DNA from: a virus | Reading direction: 5' to 3' (one strand) | DNA: 28,411 nucleotides | Virus record (IMG/VR): IMGVR_UViG_3300018041_000046 | Span: 1 to 28,411 of that record | Part shown: piece by piece, positions 1 to 4,380 of the stretch | Layout: every line of letters begins with the position of its first letter | Position numbering within the stretch: position 1 is the stretch's first letter | Program-made: the position numbers and the translations under genes | The notes under the pieces: generated by a model | Seen by the model: the letters and a program-made list of their open reading frames with translations, nothing else | Database searches by the model: none | What the model was told of the DNA's origin: nothing

Positions 1-2690
1 GCAAGTGATTCATTTGTTAAAACTCCTGGTAGTTTGCCAGGTAATTCTGGTGGCGGAAGTTGAGCTTGAACTGCTCTTGCCATTCTAGCATCTTCCATCG
101 CTGCAATTGCATCAAATCTTTTTGCTTTTCCAATTGTTCTTGCTGTTACATTATTTTTTTCAGCAAGTTGTGCTGGTGTTCCTTCTTGTTTTGGTGCTTC
201 TTTTCTTGCTTTTTCAATAGCCGCTCTTTTTGCATCTTTTGCCATTTCAGAATCAAAATCAAAATAATCTAAAGCAGAAGGATCTTTTTCTGCCGTTTTT
301 AAAACCCCACGCATATCCAAACGTTCAAAAGGACTTTTTTCTCTTAATCCATATTTAGAAAGTGATTCTGCATCTAAACCGCCTGGTTCATTTACACCTT
401 CAAAATCCGGTCTTACCGGTGGTAATGGCATACCACCAGTTCTTCCACCTGATCTGCCTCTTTTTGTTGATACTCTTTTAGCAGCTTCTCTTTGCGGAGT
501 TCGATCTCCACCTTTAGCTTGCCATTGTTTCATAAGAGCATCAGCTCTAATCATATCTGCTGGATTTCCAGATTCATTATATTTTTCCCATGATGCTGTG
601 ACATCAGCTTTAGTTATTCCACTGCCACCTGCTCCAACACTACCAGTAGTTCCACGCCCAACACCTGAAGCACCACCAGGAGACATGCCAGTCGCGCGAA
701 GAATATTTTGTAATGCGCCGGGAAGTGTTCCACCACCAGTTTCAGTAGAGCCTCTTGCCGGCATATTTGCTGATCCAGCACCAGCGCCAGTGCCAGTTCC
801 AGCAGTTCTAGCATCAGCAGTATTACCAATATTTGTTTGACCTTTACGTCCAGCAGCCCATGCTTCTCTAATCCATTGTGAACCACCCCAAACAGCAGCT
901 TTACCAAATCCAACATGAATTCTAGATGGACCCATATAACCGTTTCCATGGCCAACGCCAGTAGCACCTAATGAAACAGCAGTAGCTACGAATTTTGCCA
1001 TAATAGCACGATCTTGTGGATTGTTTGCTGAAAGTCTTCTTCCACCAACAAAAAGATCTAAATCAGCAGCATTTCCTTGATCATGTCTATGAGAACCAAC
1101 AGCACCTGGTGCACCTGGCATTCTTTGTCCACCAGAATAAACTTTTACTGTTACACCTGCTGCATTAGCTGCTTGTTGTAGGATACTAACAAGTCTTTGA
1201 CTTAAAGTGCCTCTTCTTGTTCCAGCAGCTTTTCCTTGCAATTGCATAACACTTCCAGAATCAGTACCCGTTGCAGTTCCAACGCCTGCTCCACCACCTG
1301 GTGCTGACTGCGTATTTGTGTATGACATTGTGCCGCCACCCATTATTCCAGATGGAGTACTTGCAATTGATGGTGTTGACATATTGCTCATATTAATGCC
1401 AGCAGCACCAAGTATTCCGCTTAAAGCTGCTTGTGGTGTAGTTACTGAACCACCAGCAGATGAAGTTGACGCTGGAGCAGCATTTGAAATAAATGTTGGA
1501 GCAACTCCAGCATTTGCTGTAGCGCCACCCATAAATCTTTGGTATGTGCCTGATTTATAAACAGACCATGCATTAAATCCTTGCTGCCTATAAACTCTAT
1601 AAGCAGCTTTGGCATTTACTCTTGGATCAAATAATTGTTCATTGGCATTTATACCAAATTCTCTTCTACGAGCCGGACCTAAACGCCCAATCATATTGAT
1701 TTGCCATAATCCATATGAATTATCACCAGTTGATGCATTTGGATTATGAGCGTCAGATCTTCCACTAGATTCAGCCATAGCAATTGCTGCCATAGTAACT
1801 GATTCTTGTTGATTAAATCCCGCACCTTTTGCTAAAGAAACAAGTTCAGCAAAACCTAATTTTCTTGAAGTTATGGCTGGAGCTCTAGCTCTTTGTGAAG
1901 ATGAAGAAGTAGTAGTCGGAGCTCCTATACCTAAAGAATCTGCTACAGGATCAATGTTTCTAACCAATGATCTAGCAGGATCATTAGATATTCTTGAACC
2001 TATATCAATTTTTTCACCAGTTTTTTTAACTGTTATAATTCTTTTTAACTTATCATATGTAACATCTCTAGAACTTAAATTTCTTTTTTTCATTTCTTCT
2101 TGAATAAGCTTCATAGCTTCATTTCTAGAAGTATCACCAGCTCTTCTAATATTAGAAGCAGCCGAATCTCTCATTGCTTTTTTAGTTTCAGTTTGTTCTT
2201 CTTTTGAACGAGGCCCTTGTCTAAATGCTTCAAATGCAGCAATTGCTAGTCCTAAAGGGCCTGCTAATCTACCTACCAATTTAAGTGCTGGAAGTAATGA
2301 AGCAATACCTGCGGCAAGACCAGCAGTTTCTGCTATTCCAGATCCTCCTCCACCTTTTCCTAAATTATCAGCAATGCCTAATAATATTTTATTAGTATTG
2401 CTTTGATGTTTTACCTGTGTTGCTAATAAATCATTAGAAATAGCAACTGCTGAAGCAACTTGTCCTAGTAACTGGTTTGATCTTTCAATTCCTTTGGCCA
2501 ATCCTGATATAGTAGGTTCTACAGACATTGTGCCACCAGATGATCTTGTAGCTTTTTTAGCATCTGCTGGAGAATCATCTAATGAACCAAGTCTACTTCT
2601 AAAAGCTGACATTAATCCACCAGCAACAGCGGCAGCACCTACTCCTGCCGCTGTAGCTCCAGTCCCGCCAACTTTTGGTACTTTAACCAT
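1..2690 (-). CDS. Tape-measure-like tail protein with lytic transglycosylase and M15-type peptidase domains (3' end beyond window)
   Basis: The frame is open from the ATG at 2690 to the window edge (896 codons, no stop), so the C-terminus is missing. The start overlaps the preceding stop as TAATG. Residues 10-30 and 118-156 are Ala/Gly/Leu-rich and hydrophobic, as in tape-measure proteins. Residues about 279-385 look like an SLT-type lytic transglycosylase: AMAESSG with E307 as the likely catalytic Glu, then SYGLWQIN. Residues about 494-600 look like a zinc M15 D,D-peptidase: GSHRHDQGNAADLD (residues 532-545) and IHVGFG with H592. The rest is Gly/Thr/Ala-rich, then charged. It probably cuts peptidoglycan during tail penetration. 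Its position directly after the gp26/gp51 chaperone locus matches that of a tape measure in many tailed phages. A tail lysozyme annotated as gp5-like is the alternative, but the gp5 OB-fold is encoded elsewhere in the window. The domain calls are stronger than the tape-measure call. Confidence 0.75.
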   Translation of the reverse strand, partial: MVKVPKVGGTGATAAGVGAAAVAGGLMSAFRSRLGSLDDSPADAKKATRSSGGTMSVEPTISGLAKGIERSNQLLGQVASAVAISNDLLATQVKHQSNTNKILLGIADNLGKGGGGSGIAETAGLAAGIASLLPALKLVGRLAGPLGLAIAAFEAFRQGPRSKEEQTETKKAMRDSAASNIRRAGDTSRNEAMKLIQEEMKKRNLSSRDVTYDKLKRIITVKKTGEKIDIGSRISNDPARSLVRNIDPVADSLGIGAPTTTSSSSQRARAPAITSRKLGFAELVSLAKGAGFNQQESVTMAAIAMAESSGRSDAHNPNASTGDNSYGLWQINMIGRLGPARRREFGINANEQLFDPRVNAKAAYRVYRQQGFNAWSVYKSGTYQRFMGGATANAGVAPTFISNAAPASTSSAGGSVTTPQAALSGILGAAGINMSNMSTPSIASTPSGIMGGGTMSYTNTQSAPGGGAGVGTATGTDSGSVMQLQGKAAGTRRGTLSQRLVSILQQAANAAGVTVKVYSGGQRMPGAPGAVGSHRHDQGNAADLDLFVGGRRLSANNPQDRAIMAKFVATAVSLGATGVGHGNGYMGPSRIHVGFGKAAVWGGSQWIREAWAAGRKGQTNIGNTADARTAGTGTGAGAGSANMPARGSTETGGGTLPGALQNILRATGMSPGGASGVGRGTTGSVGAGGSGITKADVTASWEKYNESGNPADMIRADALMKQWQAKGGDRTPQREAAKRVSTKRGRSGGRTGGMPLPPVRPDFEGVNEPGGLDAESLSKYGLREKSPFERLDMRGVLKTAEKDPSALDYFDFDSEMAKDAKRAAIEKARKEAPKQEGTPAQLAEKNNVTARTIGKAKRFDAIAAMEDARMARAVQAQLPPPELPGKLPGVLTNESL

Positions 2691-2833
2691 TATTGATTAT
2701 TCCTTGTTGCTTCTTCTTGTTCTGTCATATGTTTATTAAGCAAATCAATATATAAATCTCTTTCAAATGGTATAAGGTTTTCAATTTCACTAATAGAATA
2801 TTTATGGTGCTGAGCCAGTATGAATATACTCAT
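2690..2833 (-). CDS. Small gp51-like reading frame (47 codons if started independently)
   Basis: After the gp26 stop, a 47-codon frame starts with ATG at 2833 and ends with TAA at 2690, sharing one base with the next start (TAATG). The peptide has a hydrophobic start (MSIFILAQHH), a helical core around IENLIPFERDLYIDLL, and a polar tail. In T4, gene 51 (baseplate hub assembly) lies next to gene 26, so position suggests a gp51 counterpart, though it is far shorter than T4 gp51. No good Shine-Dalgarno precedes the ATG, and the ATG lies in the loop of a predicted hairpin. The frame also continues upstream with plausible protein sequence. Expression as a frameshifted extension of gp26 therefore looks likelier than free initiation. 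Confidence 0.55.
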   Translation of the reverse strand: MSIFILAQHHKYSISEIENLIPFERDLYIDLLNKHMTEQEEATRNNQ

Positions 2834-3576
2834 ATAGTATGATTCAAGATTGTTGTGGCTCAGCGCAACATAAAAAAATCATTTAAAGTTCTCAAATAAA
2901 TTTTTCTTTCACTTCCTAATGAATTTTTATATTCAATAGCATGTTCCATATGTGGAATATTTCCTAAAAAATCTCCAAGTTTATCAAGAATTTTAATACC
3001 TAGACTATTCAAAAATTCATCTAATTCTTTATTATCAAAATCTTTTGTTGTATAATTTTTTTCTTTATCATAAATTCTATCAACGCACTTTGCAATGAGT
3101 GGAATAAATGAATCTTCAACTTTTGATTTATTTAAAAATTCTTTATCTGATAAGATTGAAACTGTAGGATATTTTAATATAATTCCCATATCATCATTAA
3201 TCTTAATATTCATTTCTTCTTTTTCAGGATATTTTAATTTTACATTTTTAAGTTCAATTTTAAAATCATATTCTTTTTCATCTTCATTATCAATATATTT
3301 TAATTCAATTACATCTTGAATAGAATTTGCTCTAATCATAAGAAAGAAATATTCCATATCAAAAATTGGAATTGATTCCACATCAAATCCATCTTCCAAA
3401 CAACAATTTTGAACAATTTGTTTTACTGATAACATAATATCAGCATCATCTTCAGAAGCTTTACCCATAAGAAGAATCTTTTCTTCTTTAACAAGCATAG
3501 GTCTAAATTTTAATAATTTTTTATTTGAAGGCGCTTCAATTGTAAAAATAGGATAATCAATTTTAGGTAATGGCAT
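2690..3576 (-). CDS. Predicted gp26-gp51-like fusion made by -1 ribosomal frameshift
   Basis: This is the predicted 295-residue product if ribosomes slip back one base on the T-run at 2878-2872. The first 235 residues are gp26. Then the -1 frame reads TAT GTT GCG CTG AGC and stays open for 60 codons to the TAA at 2692-2690. The extension contains the segment SISEIENLIPFERDLYIDLL, which looks like a small helical chaperone domain. The -1 frame has a TGA just upstream of the T-run (2881-2879), so entry from gp26 has to occur at the slip site itself. The arrangement copies lambda gpG/gpGT and sits just before the tape-measure-like gene, as in lambda. Slip site, spacer, stem and open frame are all visible. 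That frameshifting occurs, and at what rate, is inference. Confidence 0.6.
2809..2878 (-). promoter_or_regulatory. Predicted programmed -1 frameshift signal (slippery T7, spacer, two-tier stem)
   Basis: On the minus strand, T(2878) TTT(2877-2875) TTT(2874-2872) is a canonical X XXY YYZ heptamer in phase with gp26. Seven bases follow (2871-2865). Then GCTGAGCCA (2864-2856) pairs perfectly with TGGCTCAGC (2817-2809), nine base pairs. Inside the loop, GAAT-C-ATACT (2845-2836) pairs with AGTAT-ATTC (2830-2822), with one bulged C. The gp26 stop TGA (2862-2860) lies in the 5' arm. All elements are directly readable; the function is inferred. Confidence 0.65.
2860..3576 (-). CDS. 26: Baseplate hub assembly protein gp26 (T4_baseplate family)
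   Basis: This 238-residue protein resembles the T4 gp26 family: a beta-rich N-terminus with FRPMLVKEEKILLMGKA, acidic central strands, and a C-terminal helical region. T4 gp26 has 208 residues and acts in assembly of the central hub. The ATG at 3576 is chosen because GGAG lies eight bases upstream; a GTG nine bases further up overlaps that ribosome site and is less likely. It follows the gp54-like gene by 15 bases. The 3' end carries the frameshift signal described separately, so the same start probably yields both a 238- and a 295-residue protein. The family call is by remembered similarity and gene position. Confidence 0.8.
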   Translation of the reverse strand: MPLPKIDYPIFTIEAPSNKKLLKFRPMLVKEEKILLMGKASEDDADIMLSVKQIVQNCCLEDGFDVESIPIFDMEYFFLMIRANSIQDVIELKYIDNEDEKEYDFKIELKNVKLKYPEKEEMNIKINDDMGIILKYPTVSILSDKEFLNKSKVEDSFIPLIAKCVDRIYDKEKNYTTKDFDNKELDEFLNSLGIKILDKLGDFLGNIPHMEHAIEYKNSLGSERKIYLRTLNDFFMLR

Positions 3577-3591
3577 AGATTTCACTCCATT

Positions 3592-4380
3592 TTAAAATGC
3601 TGTTGAGCCAGCTCCATATGTATTTGCTGGTGTTGGTATATTAGCTTGACTTGTGGTAGGTTTAATGGTATTTGTTAAAGATTGAAGAACACCATTAGAA
3701 GAAATTGTGTTTTGTGGAACATTAACATTAGCCATAGCATTAACATTTACATTATCAAGTTTCCATTCTTTATACGTAAAGTTAACATTTAATCTCATTA
3801 AAGAACTTCTATTTGACCATGATAAATCAATTTCTGATAATGAAATAGGAAAAGCTTTTAATAGTCTAAATATTTGAACGGGATTTTCTCCAGAATCATC
3901 ATAGATAATTATCTCAATATCAGAAGCATAATAATTTTTATATGTTAATTCATATGATGCTAAACCGGAATTTTGAGTATTTTTATTTGGTGCATTATTA
4001 TTTGATCCAGGAGAAAAATTAAAAATATAATTCATCCATGAATAAAAGAAAGAATAAAGATCACCATTTTTATCTGCAATAAATGAAATTCCTATATCAG
4101 AAAAAGTAGCATTAAATGGTTTCTTTTCAGAAGGCCCAATTCCATATCTAAAAATATTAGCTGATGCAAATGCAATACCAGGAGTACGAATTCTATCTCC
4201 TCTAAATGTAATTAGATCAGAAAGTTGCCTTCCAAAATTTTGTACAGTTGCTCCATTATTATCAACATTACCGCCAAGTAATCCAGGAGGAGTTACTATA
4301 TTAACTAGATACTTGGAACTATTTAAAGTTCCAGTAGCATTAATATGTGATTTGAAGTTATTAATATTAAATCCTGGCAT
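3592..4380 (-). CDS. 54: Tail tube initiator, gp54-like
   Basis: A 262-residue protein whose layout follows T4 gp54: an N-terminal strand region, RIRTPGIAFASANIFRYGIG where the family has its 'MPENRLSYE' region, a FIADKNGDLYSFFYSWMNYIF segment (split over residues about 110-130), then SDIEIIIYDDSGENPVQIFR and FPISLSEIDLSWSNRSSLMR before VNFTYKEW. This tube-like fold caps the baseplate and starts polymerisation of the tail tube. The C-terminus (Asn/Pro/Thr-rich, about 45 residues) looks disordered. Its start overlaps the stop of the preceding gene by one base (TAATG), with GGAAAG as ribosome site. gp19 (tube protein) shares the fold and is the main alternative, but tube proteins are shorter. 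Confidence 0.7.
   Translation of the reverse strand: MPGFNINNFKSHINATGTLNSSKYLVNIVTPPGLLGGNVDNNGATVQNFGRQLSDLITFRGDRIRTPGIAFASANIFRYGIGPSEKKPFNATFSDIGISFIADKNGDLYSFFYSWMNYIFNFSPGSNNNAPNKNTQNSGLASYELTYKNYYASDIEIIIYDDSGENPVQIFRLLKAFPISLSEIDLSWSNRSSLMRLNVNFTYKEWKLDNVNVNAMANVNVPQNTISSNGVLQSLTNTIKPTTSQANIPTPANTYGAGSTAF

Follow-up and report, generated by a model that had tools for sequence, protein, structure and literature searches.

How the second of two overlapping reading frames is translated is the question raised by a locus in the IMG/VR virus record IMGVR_UViG_3300018041_000046, whose positions 1 to 28,411 (a stretch of 28,411 nucleotides (nt), referred to here as the window) carry on the minus strand a gene similar to T4 gene 26. 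The end of this gp26-like gene is overlapped in the -1 frame by an open frame of 60 codons that is similar to the end of T4-type gp51 and that runs into a large gene at the position of the tape measure. A comparison with related IMG/VR loci and named phages indicates that gp26 and the 60-codon frame are very probably one tail-assembly chaperone (TAC) gene, the short and long forms of which would be produced by programmed -1 frameshifting.

Slip site and downstream RNA structure

On the minus strand, the 3' end of gp26 reads GA[T TTT TTT] ATG TTG CGC TGA (the heptamer is bracketed); the best start of the gene is the ATG at 3576, and its stop is the TGA at 2862-2860. The -1 frame is closed by a TGA (2881-2879) immediately 5' of the heptamer; beyond the slip it can be read through 60 codons, up to a TAA (2692-2690) that overlaps the ATG of the next gene (2690-2688) in the sequence TAATG. 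The original prediction, which was made from the sequence alone, had described T TTT TTT in phase at 2878-2872 with a 7-nt spacer, and this is confirmed to the base; its account of a -1 frame closed upstream, open for 60 codons and ending in TAATG is likewise reproduced by a re-reading of the frames. In-phase T TTT TTN occurs at 5 of the 8,977 codon positions of 18 open reading frames (ORFs) in the window, and the other four sites lie at least 112 nt from the ends of their ORFs.

Relatives were gathered by protein similarity alone. Sample 1 from IMG/VR contains 74 loci, of which 73 are scorable (the contig of L050 ends before the gp26 stop), and sample 2, obtained with one protein motif of the profile, contains the best 80 of 591 relatives, of which 79 are scorable (the contig of L132 ends before the gp26 stop) and 6 are shared with sample 1. 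Additionally, 19 named phages were chosen non-randomly from the match lists for diversity, 13 first and then 6 more distant ones. An in-phase T TTT TTN is present at the gp26 end in 73/73 loci of sample 1 (69 T TTT TTT and 4 T TTT TTC), in 79/79 loci of sample 2 (52 TTTTTTT, 26 TTTTTTC and 1 TTTTTTA), and the slip heptamer is present in 18/19 named phages (13/13 of the first set and 5/6 of the distant set). The named phages with the heptamer include members of the Kyanoviridae, Straboviridae (phi-ST2 and AS-zj) and Pootjesviridae, together with phages that infect Sinorhizobium, Caulobacter, Stenotrophomonas, Delftia, Desulfovibrio and Pseudomonas.

Elsewhere in gp26, in-phase T TTT TTN is found at only 9 of 18,778 codon positions, as counted over 86 loci with near-copies included. 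These 86 loci are the 73 of sample 1 and the first 13 named phages, and they were merged at 85% identity into 56 clusters, the same merging being used for the start-site and stem counts below. In 56/56 clusters, T occupies both the wobble position that precedes the two Phe codons and the wobble position of the first of them, compared with T shares of 0.42-0.96 at the remaining two-fold codon columns near the gp26 end (last 60 codons, columns with at least 15 rows), and this invariant pair has a log10 P of -25.2 if the clusters are independent. The second slip codon is TTT or TTC (T share 0.78 of 55; T TTT TTC is seen in 12/56 clusters and T TTT TTG in 1), which is variation of the kind that a slip site allows. 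Conservation of the slip site and the -1 frame across relatives, which had been proposed as a check of the original prediction, is thus observed together with invariant wobble bases.

The 60-residue product of the -1 frame matches phrog_634 (E = 3.7e-21) and the end of phrog_150, and in a comparison of family profiles, the -1 frame aligns with residues 207-246 of T4-type gp51 (E = 9.8e-7), in agreement with the gp51 identity that had been assigned to it.

In the window, the stem that begins 7 nt after the heptamer has 9/9 pairs and a 38-nt loop, so that the perfect 9-bp stem first described at 2864-2856 and 2817-2809 is recovered. The nested hairpin described inside the loop is also present and holds the first ATG of the -1 frame in its own loop, but its pairing is imperfect, with one bulged base, and the inner structure varies in single folds of relatives. 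A 92-nt segment folds at -24.5 kcal/mol, with z = -4.3 relative to shuffles, and another cut of 85 nt starting after the heptamer gives z = -2.9. In the stem alignment A2, which contains 42 IMG/VR clusters and is scored by the pairing geometry of the window (L011 is too short for the stem count), 75.4% of the stem pair cells are standard, and at most 43% are paired when the stem is slid by 1-3 columns. The covariation score of A2 is 0.233, compared with 0.137 ± 0.015 in shuffles that leave the relatedness of the rows in place (0/500 as high), and 34 cells are changed on both sides, compared with 16.8 in the shuffles. With the amino acids fixed, the first base of a Leu codon and the third base of a Gln codon co-vary (13 C-G and 8 T-A against 3 C-A and 3 T-G; Fisher p = 0.015, n = 27).

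The stem was also scored in 54 clusters of sample 2 (3 of its 57 new clusters are too short downstream), in which 7.11 of the 9 pairs are formed on average, compared with 6.52 ± 0.09 for shuffled partners (0/2000) and 1.57-5.63 at the other 45 offsets; at least 8 of the 9 pairs are present in 27/54 clusters. Compact hairpins are found about 6 nt after the slip site in P-SSM2 and L167, and a 14-bp hairpin is found in S-PM2. Among the T TTT TTC relatives, L084, L157, L165-L167, L177 and L186 have a compact hairpin (approximately 9-10 bp) that follows the slip site at a distance of about 6 nt, and these hairpins differ from the long-loop stem of the window. As judged from these alignments and folds, the slip site is general and the RNA structure is lineage-specific, and the stem of the window is a putative stimulator of slippage at the heptamer. 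The expectation that the stem would be conserved is therefore borne out in part: paired changes occur in two samples, but the stem is not universal.

Chaperone family and T4 genes 26 and 51

The gp26 of the window matches PF12322 (T4_baseplate, E = 4.8e-48) and phrog_150 (E = 3.6e-51), and its AlphaFold model has a mean predicted local distance difference test score (pLDDT) of 87.9. The top rows of a VIA-align search with this model are 3fgx (RBSTP2171, Z 8.4), 2ob9 (the HK97 chaperone, Z 8.0) and 3klu (YqbN, Z 6.8), followed by 5ir0 (ORF19 of an element resembling a phage-inducible chromosomal island, Z 5.0) and a fifth row at 2.9. All four top matches fall within residues 1-94 of gp26, with 7-12% identity to 2ob9, 3klu and 3fgx, and 3fgx and 3klu are structures that we take to be relatives of tail-assembly chaperones. 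In the predicted model, the N-terminal ~90 residues of gp26 thus resemble tail-assembly chaperones. The predicted structure of the 60-residue extension alone has low confidence (pLDDT 70, predicted template modeling score 0.49, three helices) and is given no weight.

T4 carries genes 26 and 51 as a pair of paralogues that are separate and divergent, with a short gp26 and a long gp51. T4 gp26 consists of the PF12322 domain alone, and T4 gp51 consists of this domain (residues 1-201, E = 3.9e-52) and an extension. On the family profile, which is 282 positions long, T4 gp26 ends at position 235 and the gp26 of the window at position 234. In hhalign, the family of the window aligns with T4-type gp51 over the body (7.7e-12) as well as over the extension, and the end of its gp26 aligns to residue 202 of T4-type gp51. 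The end of T4 gene 26 has no slip heptamer, and the gene arrangement of Aeromonas 31 is as in T4. The family profiles, the fold and the match of short and long forms agree with the earlier suggestion that the T4 hub-assembly genes are linked to tail-assembly chaperones. In RB43 (L090, 4001-5294), a long gp51 and a probable short gp26 lie in tandem on one strand, unlike T4; the segment 4737-5294 is probably gp26, as suggested by a weak profile match (E 0.00027). L105 carries at 3001-3746 a T4-like gp51 whose frame is broken in the middle of the gene in the IMG/VR record, by a sequencing error or in reality.

A quick, unrooted tree, for which 18 of 43 IMG/VR clusters were picked, places the frameshift-type genes (37 rows, including that of Vibrio phage K364, which lacks the heptamer) on one side of a branch with a Shimodaira-Hasegawa-like approximate likelihood ratio test (SH-aLRT) support of 95, and the 8 long gp51 rows group together with an SH-aLRT of 98. 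For the 8 short gp26 rows, two changes are required, because the gp26 of RB43 strays on a long branch; that of Aeromonas 31 has a long branch as well. Rows were picked by hand in A1 (38 rows), A3 (25 rows) and A4 (8/10 loci). The simplest reading of these sequences is that, on the T4 side, frameshifting has been replaced once by gene duplication; because the tree is unrooted, we infer the direction of this replacement.

Probable frameshifting and its alternatives

In the proposed mechanism, most ribosomes would stop at the TGA of gp26 and release the short form, TAC-N. At T TTT TTT, the Phe tRNAs in the P-site and the A-site may re-pair one base back, assisted by the 9-bp stem 7 nt downstream, and the slipped ribosomes would read 60 more codons to give the long form, TAC-NC. 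The long form, made in the minority, would connect the chaperone with the tape measure, and the short form would coat the tape measure and recruit the tail-tube subunits, roles that are suggested by analogy with lambda G/GT. We infer the occurrence of slippage, its rate and this division of labour. The frameshift reading of the original prediction is supported by comparative evidence from the slip site, the -1 frame, the stem, the fold and the T4 forms.

Several observations weigh against this reading. Vibrio phage K364 (L094, 3560-3580) has both frames without a tandem-slip heptamer: its junction reads ACG CTT TTT GCG TAA and is followed by ATG ATG just past the gp26 stop, and its gp51 may be made by re-initiation, as judged from this arrangement. 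In 23/56 clusters, the -1 frame has an ATG among its first 14 codons, and in one of the 56 (L070), gp51 has an upstream TTG with a ribosome-site match. In sample 2, 27/54 clusters have fewer than 8 of the 9 stem pairs. In A2, there is no excess over shuffles of pairs with two-sided change (4 vs 3.9) or of further pair types (14 vs 13.0), RNAalifold over all 42 rows finds no common structure, and several relatives, for example P-SSM4, fold no better than shuffles (z near 0 or positive). As for the fold, Foldseek gives no significant match to the gp26 model in the PDB (its leading rows are unrelated structures and were ignored), and a best Z of 7-8 is common for models without clear relatives, so that the argument for the fold lies in the drop in Z after the fourth row and in the mutual consistency of the rows. 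Frameshifting, although probably very common in these samples, would in view of K364 not be the sole solution outside the T4 branch.

An alternative to frameshifting is that gp51 is a separate small protein, translated from its own start or through translational coupling, by ribosomes that re-initiate past the end of gp26. Such an arrangement would account for the ATG ATG of K364 and for the early ATG codons in the 23 clusters, and a separate gp51 gene is annotated in 12/13 of the first named regions (the exception is ACG-2014d). However, an ATG with a ribosome-site match is found for gp51 in 0/56 clusters, and no ATG at all is present up to codon 14 in 33/56, compared with 52/56 clusters in which the gp26 start has a ribosome-site match, although the latter test is laxer in that the best of up to five nearby starts was taken. 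In the window, the first ATG of the -1 frame (2833-2831) is 26 nt past the gp26 stop in the loop of the nested hairpin, and a start at this position would omit the partly conserved segment LSHNNLESYY. The remark in the original prediction that the gp51 frame has no good ribosome site of its own extends, for ATG starts, to all 56 clusters. An independent ribosome site, which had been named as a refutation, is thus seen at no ATG of these clusters; of the 19 named phages, one (K364) lacks the slip site. An independent start also leaves the invariant wobble bases of the slip site unexplained, and in T4-type phages, both parts are fused in one protein. A separate gp51 is accordingly very improbable, and the 60-codon frame is most likely read only after slippage.

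The shift could also arise in transcription, through slippage of RNA polymerase on the T-run, which would yield mRNAs with an altered U count. A run of 7 T might slip in this manner, but the 6-T runs of the T TTT TTC and T TTT TTG clusters, as well as those of 27 of the 79 loci in sample 2, stand in the phase of the tandem-slip heptamer, and a paired stem at a fixed distance downstream fits ribosomal slippage better; we regard this explanation as very improbable. Barely credible is the explanation that the length of the T-run is an assembly or sequencing error and that the locus is truly one continuous frame or two unrelated frames. Homopolymers are error-prone in general, but two other IMG/VR contigs (L001 and L002) share 4,214 identical bases with the window, the T-run among them (the samples are possibly not independent), diverged relatives and isolates keep the frame change at this place, and the frame relation is unchanged in the T TTT TTC variants, in which the run is shorter. 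The error that had been named as a refutation of the original prediction is thus not upheld, and ribosomal frameshifting is retained as the most probable explanation of the junction.

Annotation, neighbouring genes and known systems

The frameshift reading has consequences for how many phages are annotated, in that 559 phage records match the gp26 of the window and 556 match the product of its -1 frame. In the annotated regions viewed, gp51 is a separate gene, often named 'baseplate hub assembly catalyst', or is missing, and the two frames are joined in none. Among the named phages (L076-L088 and L092-L096), the gp51 start is annotated differently from record to record, and the records of ACG-2014d and AS-zj list no gp51. 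The sequence comparison makes it more likely that the gp51 frame in these records is the C-terminal part of a longer chaperone. According to a passage of a T4 review (PMC3004832), T4 gp51 is essential and its function is unknown; it thereby gains a counterpart in tail assembly.

The frameshift-type and T4 branches would offer a natural contrast between a ratio of one chaperone pair that is set by RNA and one that is set by genes. With slightly more doubt than confidence, a composite recoding element may be proposed outside the T4 branch, made up of the near-invariant T TTT TTN and exchangeable 3' structures; these structures would be the covarying 9-bp stem with its 38-nt loop in the lineage of the window and the compact hairpins of the cyanophage type, and the T4 branch (T4, Aeromonas 31 and RB43) would have replaced the element once by duplication. 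If this proposal is true, RNA fixes the ratio of short to long form outside the T4 branch, and within that branch the ratio depends on two genes.

The coordinates of the locus are collected in Table 1. The downstream gene has an SLT_3 domain (E = 8e-19, residues 285-376, lysozyme-like). Genes at this place in Cr30, phiM12 and phi-ST2 have partial matches to tape-measure profiles; no such profile matches the sequence of the gene in the window, and BLAST of this gene against the tape-measure candidate of phiM12 gives nothing. The designation as tape-measure-like in the original prediction thus stands on position and length, and the gene is a putative tape measure. A stretch resembling M15 peptidases is also recognized in it by eye, and the gene at this place in S-CREM1 is annotated as an M15 metallopeptidase.

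Table 1. Positions of the probable chaperone gene, its putative recoding signals and the adjacent genes in the window.
Feature	Position	Strand	Basis
gp26-like gene, 238 codons + stop, short form (TAC-N)	2860..3576	minus	PF12322, phrog_150, predicted N-terminal fold
Slippery heptamer T TTT TTT	2872..2878	minus	In phase with gp26
Spacer ATGTTGC, 7 nt, heptamer to stem	2865..2871	minus	Sequence
Stem 5' arm GCTGAGCCA, includes frame-0 stop TGA 2862-2860	2856..2864	minus	RNA fold, paired changes
Stem 3' arm TGGCTCAGC	2809..2817	minus	RNA fold, paired changes
Nested hairpin inside the 38-nt loop	2821..2846	minus	RNA fold; 2846-2836 with 2830-2821
-1 frame, 60-codon gp51-like extension + stop, putative C-terminal part of TAC-NC	2690..2872	minus	Profile matches
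Large gene downstream, at least 896 codons, off the window edge, tape-measure position	1..2690	minus	SLT domain, TAATG overlap
Tail-tube-like gene upstream of gp26	3592..4380	minus	phrog_45 tail tube, E = 1.2e-28

The tail-assembly chaperones of T4-like phages have reportedly been described by Vladimirov, Gautam and Davidson (Virology 2022, 566:9-15). Their subject and the window share the same phage group and, by the title, the same genes. According to a passage of the PRFect paper, which cites Vladimirov et al. 2022, frameshifting is replaced in some T4-like phages by a pair of genes, one short and one a long fusion. A passage of the Adele paper (PMC12846349) credits Vladimirov et al. with poly-T -1 slip sequences in T4-like TAC-N genes. 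The statement in the original prediction that such frameshifting is undescribed in T4-like phages does not hold in light of these citing passages. Searches of the literature on T4-like phage and cyanophage genomes, and of papers that cite Vladimirov et al., yield among the matches listed no description of a frameshift beyond PRFect and Adele, the 2022 study being known via the papers that cite it. To judge from the latter, the core finding appears to be already in print. The covarying stem, the compact hairpins and the exchange of RNA elements may be previously unreported.

The slip sequence of phage lambda is G GGA AAG, and versions of the lambda frameshift exist in P2 and Mu. As in lambda G/GT, a -1 slip close to the 3' end of the short chaperone gene would give a short and a long product in the window, where the next gene lies at the tape-measure position. 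The two differ in the slip sequence, and the short form of the window is larger, with 238 codons. The lambda G/GT frameshift and its relatives are said to have been treated by Xu, Hendrix and Duda in 2004 (as cited in PRFect).

The Vandenendeviridae and Andersonviridae, in the part of the Adele paper concerned with them (PMC12846349), are described as shifting to the -1 frame close to the end of TAC-N, at a site rich in T, and their second frame is usually annotated as a separate hypothetical gene. The motif given there is GTTTTT, in contrast to T TTT TTN in the window and its relatives, and that part of the paper makes no mention of an RNA structure downstream. At the level of the fold, residues 1-94 of the predicted gp26 model would share the N-terminal fold of HK97 2ob9, YqbN 3klu and RBSTP2171 3fgx, whereas the gp26 of the window has a further ~145 residues that are barely covered by the comparison. 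T4 genes 26 and 51 provide the short and long forms of one family that are proposed for the locus of the window, but T4 uses two divergent genes.

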